Shown: positions 36,100-56,216 of the stretch, piece after piece
Position numbering within the stretch: the stretch's first letter is position 1
How the letters are laid out: every line of letters begins with the position of its first letter
Made by a program: the position numbers and the translations under genes
Assembly: GCF_014204535.1 (NCBI RefSeq)
Contig: NZ_JACHLR010000009.1
Span: 1 to 64,000 of the forward strand
From: Novosphingobium chloroacetimidivorans
GTDB taxonomy: Bacteria; Pseudomonadota; Alphaproteobacteria; Sphingomonadales; Sphingomonadaceae
Direction of reading: 5' to 3'
Length of the DNA: 64,000 bases
The notes under the pieces: model-generated
Seen by the model: the letters and a program-made list of their open reading frames with translations, nothing else
Databases searched by the model: none
Told to the model about the DNA's origin: nothing

Positions 36100-38427
36100 T
36101 CAGACCAGTTGTGCCACCGCACGCGCCTCGGCCTCGCCATAGAGGGTGGTGCGCCGCTTCAGCGGTCGACCTGCCATTGCCGCCGCCGCTCGCAAGTCGT
36201 CGACGCTGACGTCCTGGCCATGGCTGGCGCCCGCGGCGCGGCTGATGCTCTCGTTCATCAGGACACCGCCCAGGTCGTTGGCGCCGGCCGCGAGAACCGC
36301 CGCGGCACCTTCGACGCCCAGCTTCACCCACGAGCACTGGATCGAGGAGATCGACCCATGCAGGGCGAGCCGCGCGACCGCGTGCATCATCACCGCCTCG
36401 CGCCACGTCGGACCCTTGCGGCTCTGGCCGCGCCGATAGAACGGCGCTTCCATGTGGACGAGCGGCAGCGGCACGAACTCGGTGAAGCCGCCGGTCCGGT
36501 CCTGCTGGCGACGCAGCGCGAGCAGGTGCCGCGCCCAGTGCTCGGGCCGTTCCAGGTGGCCGAACATGATCGTCGAGGTCGTCGGCAGGCCCACCTGATG
36601 CGCGGCGCCGACCACGTCCAGCCACTCCTGCGTCGTCAGCTTGTCCGGGCAGATCTGGGCGCGGATGTCGTCGCACAGGATCTCGGCGGCCGTGCCGGGG
36701 AGCGAGCCGAGGCCCGCGTCCTTCAGCATGCGCAGGTAGTCCGACACTGCCATGCCCAGCGTACGCGCGCCTTGGCTGACCTCCAGCGGCGAGAAGGCGT
36801 GGACATGCAGGTCGGGACACTCCGCCTTCACCGCGCGCAGGATCGCCAGGTAAGTCTCGCCTGTATACCGCGGGTGGATGCCGCCTTGCAGGCAGACTTC
36901 GGTCGCGCCGCGCTCCACCGCCTCACGCGCGCGGCCCGCGATCTCGCCGAGATCGAGATCATAGGGTTTGTCGCGCAGGCCGCCTTTGCTGCTGGTCTTG
37001 GAAAAGGCGCAGAACGAGCAGGCGTGCGTGCAGATGTTGGTGTAGTTGATGTTGCGGTTGATGACGTACGTCACCGCCTCGCCGCTCACTTGCGCACGCA
37101 GGGCATCGGCGGCGTCGACCACCGCTTGCGCCGCCGCATCGCGCGTGGCGAACAGCGCGACGATTTCGTCTTCGCCAAGCCCCTCGCCCGCAGCCGCGCG
37201 GTCGAGGATGCGGTGCAGTTCGATGGCGACCGGACCATCATGGCGCGCGCCCAGGGGCCAACTCGGCGTGCCTGGCGCCGGATCCGGAACGCCCGGGCTC
37301 CAGCGGCTGTCGCGGCCCAGCCCTTCGCTGTCGGACAGCTTCAGCACGGCAGGACGCAGCGCCGGATCGATCCACGAGCGGTCGTCGGTAGCGACGAAGC
37401 GCGGGTAGACGGTCAGCCGCTCGACCAGTGGCAGGCCTGCTCGCGCGCAGATCGCGGCCAGGCGCTCGACCTCCGGCCATGGTGCCTCCGGGTTCACGTG
37501 GTCCTGCGTGACCGGCGAGATTCCGCCCCAGTCGTCGATGCCGCAGTCGATCAGCTCGGACAGACGCTCGTCGTTCAAATTGGGCGGCGCCTGCACCGAA
37601 ACCTCGTCGGGCAGCACGATCCGCGCGGCTGCAATGACGCGCAGGAAGTCGGACTCGGTCGCCTCGGACGCCTCGGCCATCTTCGTGCCGGGCTTGGGGC
37701 AGAAGTTCTGGACGATCACTTCCGCCAAATGGCCATGCTCGACATGAAGGTCGCGAAGGGCCAGCAGCGCCTCGATCCGCTCCTCCGCCGTCTCGCCGAT
37801 GCCGATCAGGATGCCGCTGGTCATCGGCACGCGCGCGCGACCGGCGGCGGCGATAGAGGCAAGGCGTACCGCGGGCACCTTGTCGGGCGAACCGTGGTGA
37901 CAGGCGCCTTTCTCCAGCAACCGGTCCGACGTGCTCTCCAGCATCAGCCCGCCAGAGGCCATGACGGGACGCAGCATGCTCCAGTCGTCCTCGTCGAGCA
38001 CGCCGGCGTTGACGTGCGGCAGCAGGCCGGTTTCCTTGAGCACCAGCTCGGCGCAGTGGCGCACGTAGTCGATGGTGCGCTCGAACCCATGCTCGGCCAA
38101 CCATTCGCGCGCCACCGCGTAGCGGCGCTCGGGTGCATCGCCGAGCGTGAAGAGCGCTTCCTTGCAGCCCGCGGCCGCACCCTGGCGGGCGATCTCCAGC
38201 ACTTGGCCGGGCGTGAGGTACGGCGCTTCCAGCCGCGAGGGCGTGGTCGCGAAGGTGCAGTAGTGGCACACGTCCGTGCACAGGCGGGTGAGCGGGATGA
38301 AGACCTTGCGCGAATAGGTCATCCGCATGGGGCGGGACCGGTCGCGGCGCATGCGGGCCTCGGCCTGAAGCTCGGCCAGCGGAGCGGAAAGGAGTCGGTT
38401 CGTCAGTGCACGGTCAGCGGGCGCCAT
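36100..38427 (-). CDS. fbiC: FbiC, CofG/CofH fusion: 7,8-didemethyl-8-hydroxy-5-deazariboflavin synthase
   Basis: 775 residues. FbiC makes the deazaflavin chromophore (Fo) of coenzyme F420 from tyrosine and a pyrimidine precursor. It holds two radical-SAM domains, each with CxxxCxxC: C50/C54/C57 (CTDVCHYC) in the CofG half and C466/C470/C473 (CTHACSFC) in the CofH half. GTKM and PNLN follow in the first, and GGIHP and MFGHLE in the second. The fused form is usual in bacteria, whereas archaea have separate genes. It overlaps the cofD end by 14 nt and forms cofE-cofD-fbiC. Both clusters look intact. Confidence 0.96.
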   Translation of the reverse strand: MAPADRALTNRLLSAPLAELQAEARMRRDRSRPMRMTYSRKVFIPLTRLCTDVCHYCTFATTPSRLEAPYLTPGQVLEIARQGAAAGCKEALFTLGDAPERRYAVAREWLAEHGFERTIDYVRHCAELVLKETGLLPHVNAGVLDEDDWSMLRPVMASGGLMLESTSDRLLEKGACHHGSPDKVPAVRLASIAAAGRARVPMTSGILIGIGETAEERIEALLALRDLHVEHGHLAEVIVQNFCPKPGTKMAEASEATESDFLRVIAAARIVLPDEVSVQAPPNLNDERLSELIDCGIDDWGGISPVTQDHVNPEAPWPEVERLAAICARAGLPLVERLTVYPRFVATDDRSWIDPALRPAVLKLSDSEGLGRDSRWSPGVPDPAPGTPSWPLGARHDGPVAIELHRILDRAAAGEGLGEDEIVALFATRDAAAQAVVDAADALRAQVSGEAVTYVINRNINYTNICTHACSFCAFSKTSSKGGLRDKPYDLDLGEIAGRAREAVERGATEVCLQGGIHPRYTGETYLAILRAVKAECPDLHVHAFSPLEVSQGARTLGMAVSDYLRMLKDAGLGSLPGTAAEILCDDIRAQICPDKLTTQEWLDVVGAAHQVGLPTTSTIMFGHLERPEHWARHLLALRRQQDRTGGFTEFVPLPLVHMEAPFYRRGQSRKGPTWREAVMMHAVARLALHGSISSIQCSWVKLGVEGAAAVLAAGANDLGGVLMNESISRAAGASHGQDVSVDDLRAAAAMAGRPLKRRTTLYGEAEARAVAQLV

Positions 38428-39379
38428 GGTCTTCCAGTTCGATGCGGGCAGCTGCCAGTGCTACGCGCGCAAGCCTCTCCCGATCATTGGCTTCGCACAT
38501 GACTGTTCCCGTTATCGTGACCGAAAGGCCAAGCGCGCGCAACCCCTCTGCGTCGCCCGCGTCGGCTTCGTCGATGATCAGGTGGTCGGCCAAGCCGCTG
38601 TAATGCCGGGCGATGGCCAGGTTGTTCGCCTCCGCGCCCAGTTCGGCCAGCAGCTTCCCGAGCGGCCCTTTCAGCGCCTTGCCGCCGACCAGCGGCGACA
38701 CCACGACCAGCGGCACCGAGCGGTTCCGCAAGGCCTCGCGAACCCCGTCAACCGCCAGGATCGGGTCGACGCTAAGGTAGGGATTGGAGGGGCAGACGAT
38801 CACCGCGGCTAGGTCCGGCCGGGCCAGCGCAGCGGCCAGCGGGCGCGAGGGCCGCGCACCCGGGACGCCGTCGAAGCGGATCGCGCGGGCGACCGGACGA
38901 CACTGCTCGCGCACGAAGTAGTGCTGGAAGTCCAGGATGCCGTCTGCCGTGACCACTTGCGTGCGGACTGGATCGTCGCTCATCGGAACGATCGCGTGCG
39001 CGATGCCGAGCCCCTGCGTAAGCCGCGTGGTGACCTGAGACAGCGTCTCGCCCGCACGCAGCCGCCAAGATCGGGCCAGATGCATGCCGAGATCGCGATC
39101 GCCGAGGTTGAACCAGTCCTCCTCGCCCAGTGCGCGCAGCATCGCCATGGCCTGCCACGTCTCGCCCGCGACCCCCCAGCCGCGCTCCGTGTCGTTGAGA
39201 CCGGCCATGGCATACGTCACCGAGTCGATGTCCGGGCAGATGGTGAGGCCCAGGTGTTCGAAGTCGTCGCCCGTGTTGACGGCGATGGTCAGGTCCTCGG
39301 GCGAGAGCACGGCCGCCAGGCCCGCCGCCAGCTTTGCGCCGCCCACGCCGCCGGACAGTGCCAGGACGTGGCCGCTCAT
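38414..39379 (-). CDS. cofD: CofD/FbiA, 2-phospho-L-lactate transferase
   Basis: 321 residues. CofD joins the phospho-lactyl (or phospho-enolpyruvyl) part to Fo, giving F420-0 or its dehydro form. LALSGGVGGAKLAAGL at the N-terminus, NTGDDFEHLGLTICPDIDS, WFNLGDRDL, and VICPSNPYLSVDPIL are the family motifs. The length is normal. It overlaps cofE upstream by 4 nt (ATGA) and fbiC downstream by 14 nt, so the three are translated as one unit. Confidence 0.96.
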   Translation of the reverse strand: MSGHVLALSGGVGGAKLAAGLAAVLSPEDLTIAVNTGDDFEHLGLTICPDIDSVTYAMAGLNDTERGWGVAGETWQAMAMLRALGEEDWFNLGDRDLGMHLARSWRLRAGETLSQVTTRLTQGLGIAHAIVPMSDDPVRTQVVTADGILDFQHYFVREQCRPVARAIRFDGVPGARPSRPLAAALARPDLAAVIVCPSNPYLSVDPILAVDGVREALRNRSVPLVVVSPLVGGKALKGPLGKLLAELGAEANNLAIARHYSGLADHLIIDEADAGDAEGLRALGLSVTITGTVMCEANDRERLARVALAAARIELEDHGAR

Positions 39380-40149
39380 CGGAACATGTCCTGCGCGATC
39401 GGTCGCAGTCCGCTGGCCGCGCCCGGGCCGTCATCTTCGCCGACCCACGCGCCACACCCCCGCACCAGCGCCGCGGGCGTGCCCTCGTCGCTTTCACCCA
39501 TCGCCAGCGCGGCGATCGCGGCAATCGAATCCGCCACTGCGATCTGCGTCGCCTGCAAGGTGCGGCCGAACAGGTCGACGCCGGTGCCGCGCCTGTCCTC
39601 GACCACGGTGAGCCCGGCGCAGCCGATCGCCGTCCCCACCGTGCCCACCCGCCAGGCCCGGCCCATGCTGTCGGCGATCACCACGGCGGGCCGCACGCCG
39701 GTCAGCGCGGCGATCTCGGCTCGCAGGGCGCGGGCGGACGCATCGGGGTCGACCGGCCAGAGCAGCACGGTGCCGCTATCCCCGCCGTCCACGTTCGAGG
39801 CGTCGATCCCGGCGTTCGCCAGAACGTGCCCGGTACGGTGGCGGGCAACGATCGCGACGGGCGTGGTGCGCAGCAGTTCCGTGCTCTCATCCAGGATGAG
39901 CTGCACCATCTCGGGCTCTCGCCCCGTCTCCGCAGCGATCCGGCGGGCCTCCTCGCCCACCTCGACCGTCGACAATGCGACGAGCCGCCCCTCGCGCTTC
40001 GAAACGATCTTCTGGGCAACGACCACGATATCGCCGGACGCCAGCACTTCGCCGGCGCGATCAATCGCCGCGCAGACCTCTCGTGCGACGTCTGTGCCGG
40101 CTGCGAAAAGCGGCATGCCGTGCAGGGAAATGGCGCGGATCGCAGTCAC
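39376..40149 (-). CDS. cofE: CofE, F420-0:gamma-glutamyl ligase
   Basis: 257 residues. CofE adds glutamates to F420-0 with GTP. VVVAQKIVSKREGR, ILDESTELLR, SNVDGG and ADSMGRAWRVGTVGTAIG are typical. It is the single-domain form: the C-terminal FMN-binding domain of mycobacterial FbiB (about 450 residues), which reduces dehydro-F420-0, is absent. That bears on which three-carbon precursor this organism uses. It is first gene of the leftward unit and divergent from the F420 reductase gene. Confidence 0.95.
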   Translation of the reverse strand: MTAIRAISLHGMPLFAAGTDVAREVCAAIDRAGEVLASGDIVVVAQKIVSKREGRLVALSTVEVGEEARRIAAETGREPEMVQLILDESTELLRTTPVAIVARHRTGHVLANAGIDASNVDGGDSGTVLLWPVDPDASARALRAEIAALTGVRPAVVIADSMGRAWRVGTVGTAIGCAGLTVVEDRRGTGVDLFGRTLQATQIAVADSIAAIAALAMGESDEGTPAALVRGCGAWVGEDDGPGAASGLRPIAQDMFR

Positions 40150-52475: not shown

Positions 52476-54251
52476 ATGAAATACGGTGTAAAGTCGAAGT
52501 CGATGATCATGTTGCTGCCTCTGCTGGCGGCCTGCTCGGGGTCGGATGGAGAAGCCCCGGTTGCTGCGGCGCCGGAGCTGGGAACCGCCGTCGCGGCGCA
52601 GAGCGTCACCCAGCCCTCCGCGGCCATCAAGCCGTTGAGCGACTTCGACGTCTGGGCCCGGCGCCTGATGGCAGACCGGATGAGCCCTATCGTCGCTGCG
52701 GCGGGCGACCTCTCGCAGGCATGGGTCGGCGCCGATAGCCGCACCGCCAACGTGGTCGTGCGCGCACCGCGTACCGCCGGCAAGGCGACCGTTGCCATCA
52801 GCGCTCCGGCTGCGGGCGGCGACGCCACGCCGGTGTTCCAGAACGCGATCGCGCAGCTCAAGAAGCAAGGCGGCGGCGTGCTGAAGGTCGCACCCGGCGA
52901 GTACGTGTTCCGCACGCTTAACACGATCAACAACAGCGCGCACCTGCTGCTCACCGGCCTCGCCGACGTCGACATCCAGGCGACCGACGCCAATTTTGTC
53001 TTCCAGAACAACGCCGACGGCATTTTCATCCAGGATAGCCAGCGCGTGCGCATTTTCGGCGCCAAGATGCGCGATTCGCGTTTTCTTTCCGGCACCGGTC
53101 GCATGAAGCTGGTCAACGGCGAGATGCGCCTGATTCTCGATCAGCCCCTGCCCGACGGCGTCAGCATCGTCGGGGTTGGGCCGATGAACGAAGGAAGCCG
53201 CACCTGGCCGCAGACGCAGAAGCGCTCGGTGTTCTTCCCCGGTGGCAACCAGGCCGTGCGAATCGACAGCCGCACTTTCACCGGTCCCGAATTCAAGGTT
53301 ATGCCGGACGGTCAGTTCGTTTCGATCAAGTACACATACTACGGCAACCGCGCGGTCTACATCCGTGACAGCTACACCGGCACCAACGAGGACATCGTGC
53401 TCGATGGTGTGCGCATCGGCTCGATCGGCGGCATCGGCGTTCTGATCAAGTCGCGCGGCCGCGGCTTCGCGGTCCAGAACTCGTCGTTCGCCGCGGACGC
53501 GGGCCGGCCGATGAGCACCAACTTCGACGGCATCCACGTGATCTCCGCCGCAGGCGACATCCTGATCCGCGGCAACTCGATCCTGCACACGGGGGACGAC
53601 CCGATCAACTTGCGCTCGATCATCCACAAGGTGACCGCGCTCAACACCAACAGCGTCACCATCAACAACGACGCACGCATGGTGCGCAAGGCCGACGAGC
53701 TGGCGTTCTTCAACAAGAGCGGCGAGTACCTGGGTCGCCGGGTCGTCACCAGCGCGCCGGTGATCGGCAATAGCGACACGGTGACATTCGGCCTCGCGGC
53801 CGGCGAGCCTTACGGGGAAGCCGCCTATGCGCGGGACATCAACATGACTCCGCGCCGCTTCGCGGTGGTCAACAACACCATCGCCGAGACGGTCGGCCGC
53901 GGCATGCTGATCCAGGTTGCCAATGGCTTGATCCAGAACAACACGCTGCGCAACCTGCCGCGCACCGCGATCCGCCTGCTGACCAGCTTCGATCCGTGGC
54001 TGGAAGGGGCCGGTGCGATCAACGTGCGGATCAGCAACAACACCATCGAGGGCGGCCGTGCGGAACAGGGCTTCAGCTTCGTGACCGGCATCATCACCTC
54101 GATCGGGGAAGTGGTTTCGGCCAAGATCCCGACCAACATGCACAACGGTCCGCTCAGGATCGACGGCAACAAGTTCATCGCGCCGAACACGGCCTGTCTG
54201 GCGCTCTACAACGCCAAGGACGTGGTGCAGCAGAACAACACCTGCGGATGA
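52476..54251 (+). CDS. Right-handed beta-helix lipoprotein
   Basis: 591 residues. The N-terminus ends in LLPLLAAC with Cys20 as a lipidation site. A disordered Ala/Pro-rich segment follows. After residue 100 there is a long parallel beta-helix of the pectate-lyase-like type: FQNAIAQLKKQGGGVLKVAPG, then repeated turns such as NSILHTGDDPINL, NNTIAETVGRGM, and NNTLRNLPRTAI. GDDPINLRS is a common active-site-like turn in such proteins. It may cut or bind a polysaccharide at the cell surface; the substrate is unknown. The LOV-HTH gene follows. Confidence 0.82.
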   Translation: MKYGVKSKSMIMLLPLLAACSGSDGEAPVAAAPELGTAVAAQSVTQPSAAIKPLSDFDVWARRLMADRMSPIVAAAGDLSQAWVGADSRTANVVVRAPRTAGKATVAISAPAAGGDATPVFQNAIAQLKKQGGGVLKVAPGEYVFRTLNTINNSAHLLLTGLADVDIQATDANFVFQNNADGIFIQDSQRVRIFGAKMRDSRFLSGTGRMKLVNGEMRLILDQPLPDGVSIVGVGPMNEGSRTWPQTQKRSVFFPGGNQAVRIDSRTFTGPEFKVMPDGQFVSIKYTYYGNRAVYIRDSYTGTNEDIVLDGVRIGSIGGIGVLIKSRGRGFAVQNSSFAADAGRPMSTNFDGIHVISAAGDILIRGNSILHTGDDPINLRSIIHKVTALNTNSVTINNDARMVRKADELAFFNKSGEYLGRRVVTSAPVIGNSDTVTFGLAAGEPYGEAAYARDINMTPRRFAVVNNTIAETVGRGMLIQVANGLIQNNTLRNLPRTAIRLLTSFDPWLEGAGAINVRISNNTIEGGRAEQGFSFVTGIITSIGEVVSAKIPTNMHNGPLRIDGNKFIAPNTACLALYNAKDVVQQNNTCG

Positions 54252-54421: not shown

Positions 54422-55018
54422 ATGTCTCCGCGTGTCATGATCGAACACAGCCCGCTCGCGGCTGTCATCAGCAACCCCCGCCTCCCCGACAACCCCATCA
54501 TCGAATGCAACGTGCCCTTCCTGGAACTCACGGGCTACAGTCGAGACGAGGTTATCGGCCGCAACTGCCGCTTCCTGTCGGGTCCGGACACCGAACCGTG
54601 GCTGAGCGACAAGATGCGCGAATCGATCCATGCGCAAAAGCCGGTGCTGGTGGAGATCCTGAACTATCGCAAGAACGGCACCTCGTTCCGCAATGCAGTC
54701 ATGGTGGTGCCGCTGTTCGACGAGGATGGCGAGCTGCAATACTACCTCGGCTCGCAAGTGGAGGTGCCCAAGGGCGCCGGCTATCTGAACGGCAGCGCCG
54801 AAGGGCTGTCCTCGTCCAAGGGCAAGGTCGAAACGCTGACGGCACGCCAGCGCGAGATCCTGATCCAGATGGCCGACGGCAAGCTGAACAAACAGATCGC
54901 ATTCGACCTGGGCCTGAGCGAGCGCACCGTAAAGATGCACCGCGCCGCCCTGTTTCGGGCGCTGGGCGTGAAGACCAGCGCCGATGCGATCCGGATTGCG
55001 GTAGAGGCGGGGCACTGA
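54422..55018 (+). CDS. LOV-HTH blue-light transcription factor, EL222-like
   Basis: 198 residues. The LOV domain (about 5-115) carries GRNCRFLSG with Cys49, the residue that bonds flavin in blue light, and the strands EILNYRKNGTSFRNAV and YYLGSQVEV. A LuxR-type helix-turn-helix (about 136-198) follows: LTARQREILIQMADGKLNKQ, DLGLSERTVKMHR. Order and sequence match Erythrobacter EL222, which dimerises and binds DNA in light. The ATG at 54422 is chosen by domain fit; an ATG at 54346 and one at 54437 are alternatives, and no clear ribosome site is seen. It lies 170 nt after the beta-helix gene. Confidence 0.92.
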   Translation: MSPRVMIEHSPLAAVISNPRLPDNPIIECNVPFLELTGYSRDEVIGRNCRFLSGPDTEPWLSDKMRESIHAQKPVLVEILNYRKNGTSFRNAVMVVPLFDEDGELQYYLGSQVEVPKGAGYLNGSAEGLSSSKGKVETLTARQREILIQMADGKLNKQIAFDLGLSERTVKMHRAALFRALGVKTSADAIRIAVEAGH

Positions 55019-55421: not shown

Positions 55422-56216
55422 ATGGCTGAGCAAACTGACGTTGTTGATGTCGGCGATCAGGCTCGTGCCGAGTTGGCAGACCTAATCGACCGGCAGATGA
55501 GCCCGCTCGGCTTGGCCGCAATGCATGCGCTTGCCCCCGAGCCCGGCCATACCGTGCTGGACGTGGGGTGTGGGGCAGGTCAGACAATCCTGCAACTGGC
55601 AGACCGAGTTGGCCCGTCCGGTCGGATAATCGGAGTTGATCTAGCTCCCCGCGTGCTGGCCGTTGCGCGCCGAAGAACGGCTCACCTGCCGCAAGTGGAG
55701 TTGCTTCAGCAGGATGCCGGTGCCCTCCCGCTGGCCTCGCAAAGTTTGGACCGGGTATTCTCGCGTTTCGGAACGATGTTCTTCACCAGCCCCGTTGCGG
55801 CCTTTGCCAACATGCGCAGGATGTTGAGGCCGGGCGGAAGGGTTGCGTTCGTCTGCTGGCGATCAATGCATGAGAACGAACTCGACGTCTTTTGTGTCGA
55901 GGCTGCCGGATTGCCGATCAACGTCGACGTGTCGCCGTTCAGCTTTGAGAGTGCCGCCGCTGTTGAGCAGGTGCTTGGTTTGGCAGGGTTCTACGAGATC
56001 AAGGTCTCCGCCTACGACGCGCAGATCTCCTGTGGCGACGTAGAGGCAACGTTGAAGGTAGTGACACGCGTCGGCGCGCTGGGGAAAGCACTTCGAGAGA
56101 ACCCTGCGCTGCTTGCTGACGCCGAAGAGCCGGTGCGCGCGGCCCTGACTGCGCGTGAGCAGAGCGGCTCGGTCCATCTGGGCGCTGCGACGTGGATCGT
56201 TGTCGCCACTGCATAA
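55422..56216 (+). CDS. Class I SAM-dependent methyltransferase (UbiE-like)
   Basis: 264 residues. Motif I is VLDVGCGAGQTILQLA (about 46-61), then GVDLAPRVLAVAR, a QDAGALPLASQSLDRVFSRF segment and RMLRPGGRVAFVCWR. This is the UbiE/COQ5-type fold that methylates small molecules. The C-terminal third is specific and of unknown role. It stands alone between the LOV-HTH gene and secA. The substrate is unknown. Confidence 0.85.
   Translation: MAEQTDVVDVGDQARAELADLIDRQMSPLGLAAMHALAPEPGHTVLDVGCGAGQTILQLADRVGPSGRIIGVDLAPRVLAVARRRTAHLPQVELLQQDAGALPLASQSLDRVFSRFGTMFFTSPVAAFANMRRMLRPGGRVAFVCWRSMHENELDVFCVEAAGLPINVDVSPFSFESAAAVEQVLGLAGFYEIKVSAYDAQISCGDVEATLKVVTRVGALGKALRENPALLADAEEPVRAALTAREQSGSVHLGAATWIVVATA

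Follow-up and report, generated by a model that had tools for sequence, protein, structure and literature searches.

Our analysis points, with some reservation, to an EL222-type one-component blue-light transcription factor in Novosphingobium chloroacetimidivorans that probably activates the photoreactivation genes phr and dprp via a palindromic operator. The protein is encoded in the 64,000-nucleotide stretch that was analyzed (contig NZ_JACHLR010000009.1, positions 1 to 64,000; here termed the window) and combines a LOV sensor with a helix-turn-helix (HTH) domain. By analogy with EL222, blue light would cause a flavin-Cys49 adduct to form in the LOV domain, and the adduct would free the HTH for dimerization and for binding to an 18-bp palindrome with the core TGNCCNWWNGGNCA. 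This palindrome, centered approximately 41 bp upstream of the target start codons, would precede two predicted targets, namely, a PF00875 photolyase gene (phr, on contig C14) and a PF04244 photolyase-related gene (dprp, on the window's contig). The bound LOV-HTH protein would activate these photoreactivation genes, and the repair enzymes would be induced by the same light that drives their reaction.

Domain architecture and conserved residues

The LOV-HTH open reading frame proposed in the initial annotation was recovered at exactly 54422 to 55018 (plus strand; 198 amino acids plus stop), an extent in agreement with the PDB and Pfam matches and with the starts of orthologs. Both Pfam domains scored above the cut-off. 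PAS_9 covers residues 22 to 112 (E value, 1.3e-17) of a LOV (PAS) domain spanning approximately residues 6 to 115 (54437 to 54766, plus strand), as delimited by this match, the EL222 alignment, and the strands and helices of the structure model. The GerE/LuxR-type HTH domain covers residues 138 to 193 (54833 to 55000, plus strand; E value, 1.1e-16). The two domains form a single chain of about 200 residues in which Pfam detected no further domain, including no MerR-type DNA-binding domain of the LitR/CarH class. An alternative start, ATG 54347 (223 amino acids), found no support. Position 54422 is supported by an in-frame stop in N. fluoreni, four codons before the equivalent start, and by the many orthologs that begin at the same short MSxxxMI N terminus.

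The photoactive cysteine was said to be kept, and this is the case. Cys49 (codon 54566 to 54568, plus strand) lies within GRNCRFL, which carries the GxNCRF cysteine motif of the LOV domain, and Asn48, Cys49, and Arg50 are invariant in an alignment of 40 sequences; we take the role of Cys49 in flavin adduct formation from what is known of the LOV family. In the same alignment, the HTH residues Lys157, Gln158, Glu167, Arg168, Thr169, Lys171, Met172, and His173 are invariant. Residues 167 to 181 (ERTVKMHRAALFRAL; 54920 to 54964, plus strand) form a helix in the model that is kept in 103 orthologs and that, judged by its likeness to LuxR/NarL HTH domains, is probably the recognition helix, so that the LuxR-type DNA-binding helix is also retained as claimed. 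Since both the LOV domain and the LuxR-type HTH are intact, the protein is most naturally read as a transcription factor under blue-light control, and the sequence features, including the adduct cysteine and the conserved recognition helix, support the blue-light regulator that had been proposed.

Among 163 PDB sequences, EL222 of Erythrobacter litoralis HTCC2594 was the top match (8a5r, E value of 1.6e-64; 3p7n, 3.2e-64), followed by a LOV domain at 2.4e-30. EL222 was also first in the fold search (53 to 54% identity), with an rmsd of 15 over the whole length that reflects a different positioning of the two domains in the single-chain model; single LOV domains superpose at 0.5 to 2 Å. The two proteins share the domain order, the LOV cysteine motif, the HTH, and the recognition helix. 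The statement that the sequence follows EL222 closely is true of both domains (residues 6 to 197 aligned), but it does not extend to the N terminus, which is longer in EL222, nor to the linker. The N-terminal extension and the helical J-alpha linker of EL222, neither of which we take as defining the family, are not matched in the window protein, with the loss of the helix being a prediction.

A variant linker between the two domains

Residues 116 to 133 (54767 to 54820, plus strand), where a J-alpha helix is modeled in the ortholog L048, are Gly/Ser rich in the window protein and in its N. fluoreni ortholog. The window protein has Gly128, compared with Arg in 89 of 103 sequences, and Ser132, compared with Ala in 99 of 103; these family residues, Arg128 and Ala132, are lost in both proteins. 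AlphaFold predicts a coil for the window linker, with pLDDT values below 50 at residues 120 to 130, whereas L048 has a helix at residues 117 to 135 (block means of 84 to 92). Neither protein retains the conserved linker sequence modeled in L048 as a J-alpha helix. Such a degenerate linker predicts that dark control may differ in the window protein, which, if the proposed regulation is right, would offer a natural linker variant for study.

This region also bears on the possibility that the LOV-HTH protein has lost its normal response to light and is instead constitutive or responsive to redox state or flavin levels, with its operator unchanged. The low-confidence coil, the loss of Arg128 and Ala132, and the short N terminus would fit such a change. 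However, conservation extends to Cys49 and the flavin pocket, which would be unexpected after a long loss of photosensing, and the N terminus is equally short in many orthologs; we consider altered sensing quite improbable.

Distribution and gene neighborhood

The genome contains a single LOV-HTH protein and, according to a search of this genome, two further LOV proteins, both histidine kinases with the same type of LOV domain (43 to 45% identity) and a HisKA_2/HWE kinase output. LOV-HTH matches over both domains were found in 22 of 61 genomes (own, genus, and order), all 22 belonging to the window's genus, and two further genomes (G021 and G032) matched in the LOV domain only. Among 199 genomes sampled from the family, 49 had a LOV-HTH protein with an E value of 1e-45 or better. 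A scan of named genomes gave 258 relatives, the best 80 of which were kept; these are mostly from sphingomonads, with some from acetic acid bacteria. The nearest named ortholog is that of N. fluoreni (83%). One locus, L101 (CAJCHR010000172.1), is titled Actinobacteria bacterium; its LOV-HTH match is the same as that of G026:C172 of the window's genus, and it is probably mislabeled.

Neighboring genes were counted in 81 loci (the 80 fetched plus the window) with a simple ORF caller and single-linkage clustering, and the counts are therefore rough. A folE gene was found near LOV-HTH in 33 loci, in 27 of which it is divergent and lies less than 600 bp upstream, and an FAD amine-oxidase-like gene was found in 34. 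Other neighbors were DPRP (10 loci), photolyase (9), short-chain dehydrogenase/reductase (SDR) (10), and a fasciclin-like gene (7). Pfam was run on examples of the folE and FAD genes and, from the window's genome, on the DPRP and photolyase genes; the names SDR and fasciclin, as well as the assignment of the photolyase cluster in the remaining loci, come from recognition of the sequence. In Pseudomonas putida and P. mendocina, LitR/PplR together with a short LOV protein controls similar kinds of genes, the light-induced set given in PMC9758184 comprising photolyase, SDR, FAD-dependent oxidoreductase, GTP cyclohydrolase I, and a cryptochrome-like protein. In that system, a MerR-type DNA-binding protein acts with a separate LOV protein, whereas sensor and HTH form one chain in the window protein.

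The window and N. fluoreni loci have no folE, FAD, DPRP, photolyase, SDR, or fasciclin-like neighbors. They share genes that by eye resemble tsf, rpsB, two phospholipid genes, an RNA methyltransferase gene, a beta-helix gene, secA, and pckA. The right-handed beta-helix gene (NosD-like, a weak match; 52476 to 54251) is directly upstream of LOV-HTH, as it is in N. fluoreni. Between LOV-HTH and secA is a methyltransferase gene (55422 to 56216) that is missing at the equivalent place in N. fluoreni, and it was thus gained in the window's lineage or lost in N. fluoreni. In nine other loci (L070, L071, L072, L073, L079, L090, L095, L098, and L118), the gene downstream of LOV-HTH is convergent and by eye resembles that of an HWE-type histidine kinase with membrane segments; the distance is less than 600 bp in seven of the nine.

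An operator-like palindrome upstream of LOV-HTH genes

When the published 12-bp consensus of EL222 was used as a scan, 46 of 103 LOV-HTH promoters had a site with at most one mismatch, compared with 22.5 expected from Markov shuffles. Since this excess was only weak, a motif was sought de novo by expectation maximization for a palindrome in the 200 bp upstream of the 103 LOV-HTH starts (82 after the removal of near copies). The resulting motif, CATGNCCNAAAGGGCA, with the core TGNCCNWWNGGNCA, was estimated to be present in 82% of these promoters, and its log-likelihood was 277, compared with 61 to 72 in four shuffled sets. For the same 77 loci, the log-likelihood was 262 in the real promoters and 156 in a control stretch 1,000 to 1,200 bp upstream; that the latter exceeds the shuffles is probably due to related coding sequence in that stretch. 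The box starts 51 to 56 bp before the start codon in 25 of the 35 nonredundant promoters with a site of at least 14 bits. At a threshold of at least 14.5 bits, there were 69 sites in 1.14 Mb, 43 of which fall within 210 bp upstream of LOV-HTH. Among the remaining 26, 11 are within 250 bp upstream of a neighboring photolyase (3 sites), SDR (2 sites), or fasciclin-like gene (6 sites).

The palindrome resembles, at the sequence level, the published EL222 operator C120, which scored 11.3 bits on the ortholog motif, a value matched by 0.045% of shuffles; the peak B site of EL222 did not fit (-2.1 bits), both sites being taken from PMC10521638. The LOV-HTH genes of the window and of N. fluoreni have no good box in their own promoters (2.4 and -1.2 bits, respectively). 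At many LOV-HTH promoters, e.g., in L019, L021, L044, and L061, a conserved CAA precedes the box. In the window's genome, neither the phr box nor the dprp box has this CAA, which may belong to the divergent folE promoter. The fasciclin-like genes of L060, L074, L100, L112, L113, and L115 have an operator-like site 32 to 147 bp upstream and are possible further members of the regulon.

Candidate targets in the genome

The exact core occurs at 14 sites in the 4.61-Mb genome, compared with 20 for the reversed control; it is not enriched, and most of the 14 sites are therefore probably due to chance. One of them, C14:21779-21792, is just before the only PF00875 photolyase gene found. The corresponding phr box, ACTGGCCATAAGGGCAGG (16.6 bits), begins 50 bp before the ATG. 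The PF04244 gene was fetched next because DPRP genes neighbor LOV-HTH in relatives; only one was found, on the window's own contig and 57 kb away. Its box, CCCGTCCCAAAGGGCAGG (14.5 bits; C9:111130-111147), begins 52 bp before the ATG and differs from the exact core at one base. In its 16-kb stretch, each of the two boxes is the sole site of at least 10 bits, and N. fluoreni has a phr site at the equivalent place that is weaker (10.7 bits). The only folE found in the genome has no comparable box, the best site in its locus (10.5 bits) falling within another gene about 1 kb upstream.

If the leader is short, a box with its center about 41 bp ahead of the start codon would be near the -35 element. 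According to PMC9614035, engineered EL222 promoters are activated when the operator is upstream of -35 and repressed when it is located between -35 and -10. Activation by the bound LOV-HTH protein is thus likely but not certain.

Within the window, no site of at least 9 bits was found between 38534 and 59440. This argues against a role of the LOV-HTH protein in controlling the adjoining beta-helix or methyltransferase gene. The beta-helix gene adjoins LOV-HTH also in N. fluoreni, as such control would suggest, but the methyltransferase gene does not occupy the equivalent place there, and we find this explanation scarcely credible.

An operator-like site, CGTGACCGAAAGGCCAAG (38516 to 38533; 15.1 bits), is located at the 3' end of cofD and, on the minus strand, approximately 88 bp upstream of the gene for CofGH (FO synthase). 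Comparable sites occur about once per 40 to 60 kb, and it is quite possible that this one is due to chance. The region from 36100 to 40149 contains F420/FO biosynthesis genes in an alphaproteobacterium, with CofGH and CofD above the NCBIfam cut-off, followed by an ORF that is cofE-like by eye. Some photolyases use FO as a light-harvesting pigment. No cofD or fbiC was seen by eye in 20 kb from N. fluoreni.

Co-occurrence of the photolyase box with LOV-HTH

We scored the best site within 250 bp upstream of each photolyase gene, using a threshold of 10 bits. A box was found in 15 of the 22 scored genomes with LOV-HTH, in 11 of these beginning 40 to 56 bp before the start. When genomes were treated as independent, this compares with 0 of 13 genomes without LOV-HTH in the genus (Fisher, 6e-5) and 0 of 29 overall (5e-8). 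N. fluoreni (G061) was added to the scored set, G018 (LOV-HTH but no photolyase match) was left out, and G021 and G032 were counted as lacking LOV-HTH. Five of 56 photolyase places were left out (G043, G052, two of G057, and the second of G047), and G024b, the second photolyase of a LOV-HTH genome, was excluded from the LOV-negative count.

In the family sample, 39 of the 49 LOV-HTH genomes were scored; the ten left out were G000 (scored before), three without a listed position, and six without a photolyase match or unlisted. The LOV-negative set comprised 41 genomes from 32 genera, hand-picked from about 123 photolyase genomes. Boxes were found in 7 of 39 genomes with LOV-HTH and in 0 of 41 without it (Fisher, 0.005; rank test, 0.02; genomes again treated as independent), compared with 0 of 39 and 2 of 41 in a control stretch further upstream. 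One of the seven boxes scored exactly 10.0 bits, and four were more than 110 bp upstream. Divided by identity to the window protein, a split chosen after seeing the data, boxes were present in 4 of 8 genomes at 60% or more and in 3 of 31 below. On the photolyase tree, there was one supported independent pair only (six on the best tree), which leaves the comparison underpowered; random pairings placed the box with the regulator in 0.8 and the opposite in none.

The association is correlational, with shared ancestry not fully controlled, as would be expected if the box belonged to another regulator sharing the photolyase regulon and LOV-HTH merely co-occurred with it. However, the box is densest directly upstream of LOV-HTH and resembles the EL222 operator; we take LOV-HTH itself to be the probable binder and consider another regulator very improbable.

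The 32 of 39 scored LOV-HTH genomes outside the genus that have no photolyase box favor a further alternative, namely, that the protein is an ordinary EL222-type light regulator with other target genes, the phr and dprp boxes being relics or chance sites. The departure of the gene from the folE neighborhood without a box of its own and the chance-level frequency of the core in the genome would agree with this. Against it are the isolation of the two boxes in their 16-kb stretches, their positions at -50 and -52, and the retention of the phr box, albeit weaker, at the equivalent place in N. fluoreni. We consider other targets unlikely and retain phr and dprp as the probable ones.

DISCUSSION

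In favor of light-dependent binding and activation at phr and dprp, we counted the kinship to EL222, the de novo palindrome, the fit of C120, the phr and dprp boxes, the co-occurrence, the recurrent neighbors, and the parallel in Pseudomonas. Against it, with respect to the sites, we counted the lack of an own box, the unenriched core, the mismatch in the dprp core, the weak N. fluoreni phr box, and the misfit of peak B and, with respect to context, the boxless genomes outside the genus, the distant boxes, the underpowered tree, the boxless folE, and the degenerate linker. The neighbors of the orthologs, the de novo palindrome, the boxes at phr and dprp, and their co-occurrence with LOV-HTH are new. 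In the literature searched, and leaving aside overlap with the main target study on EL222, we found no report of photolyase control by a LOV-HTH protein. In that study, light reportedly activates two genes beside a binding site.

A broader scenario, which we advance tentatively and with more doubt than the activation of phr and dprp, is that LOV-HTH in sphingomonads and acetic acid bacteria serves as the one-component switch by which blue light controls a photoreactivation regulon (photolyases and, in many species, also FolE, an FAD oxidoreductase, and an SDR), one protein doing the job of LitR and a separate LOV protein in Pseudomonas. The regulator of the window's lineage would have moved and lost its own operator and J-alpha helix, with its control in trans of the two photolyase-family genes retained.

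EL222 is a common tool in optogenetics, but to our knowledge little is known of its natural role. The initial annotation had remarked that few natural targets of such proteins are known; the candidate operator and candidate targets bear on this point, and the operator together with its two candidate targets makes the natural role of EL222-type proteins testable. If the proposed regulation is true, it would represent a second wiring of blue light to DNA photorepair, beside that of LitR with a separate LOV protein.
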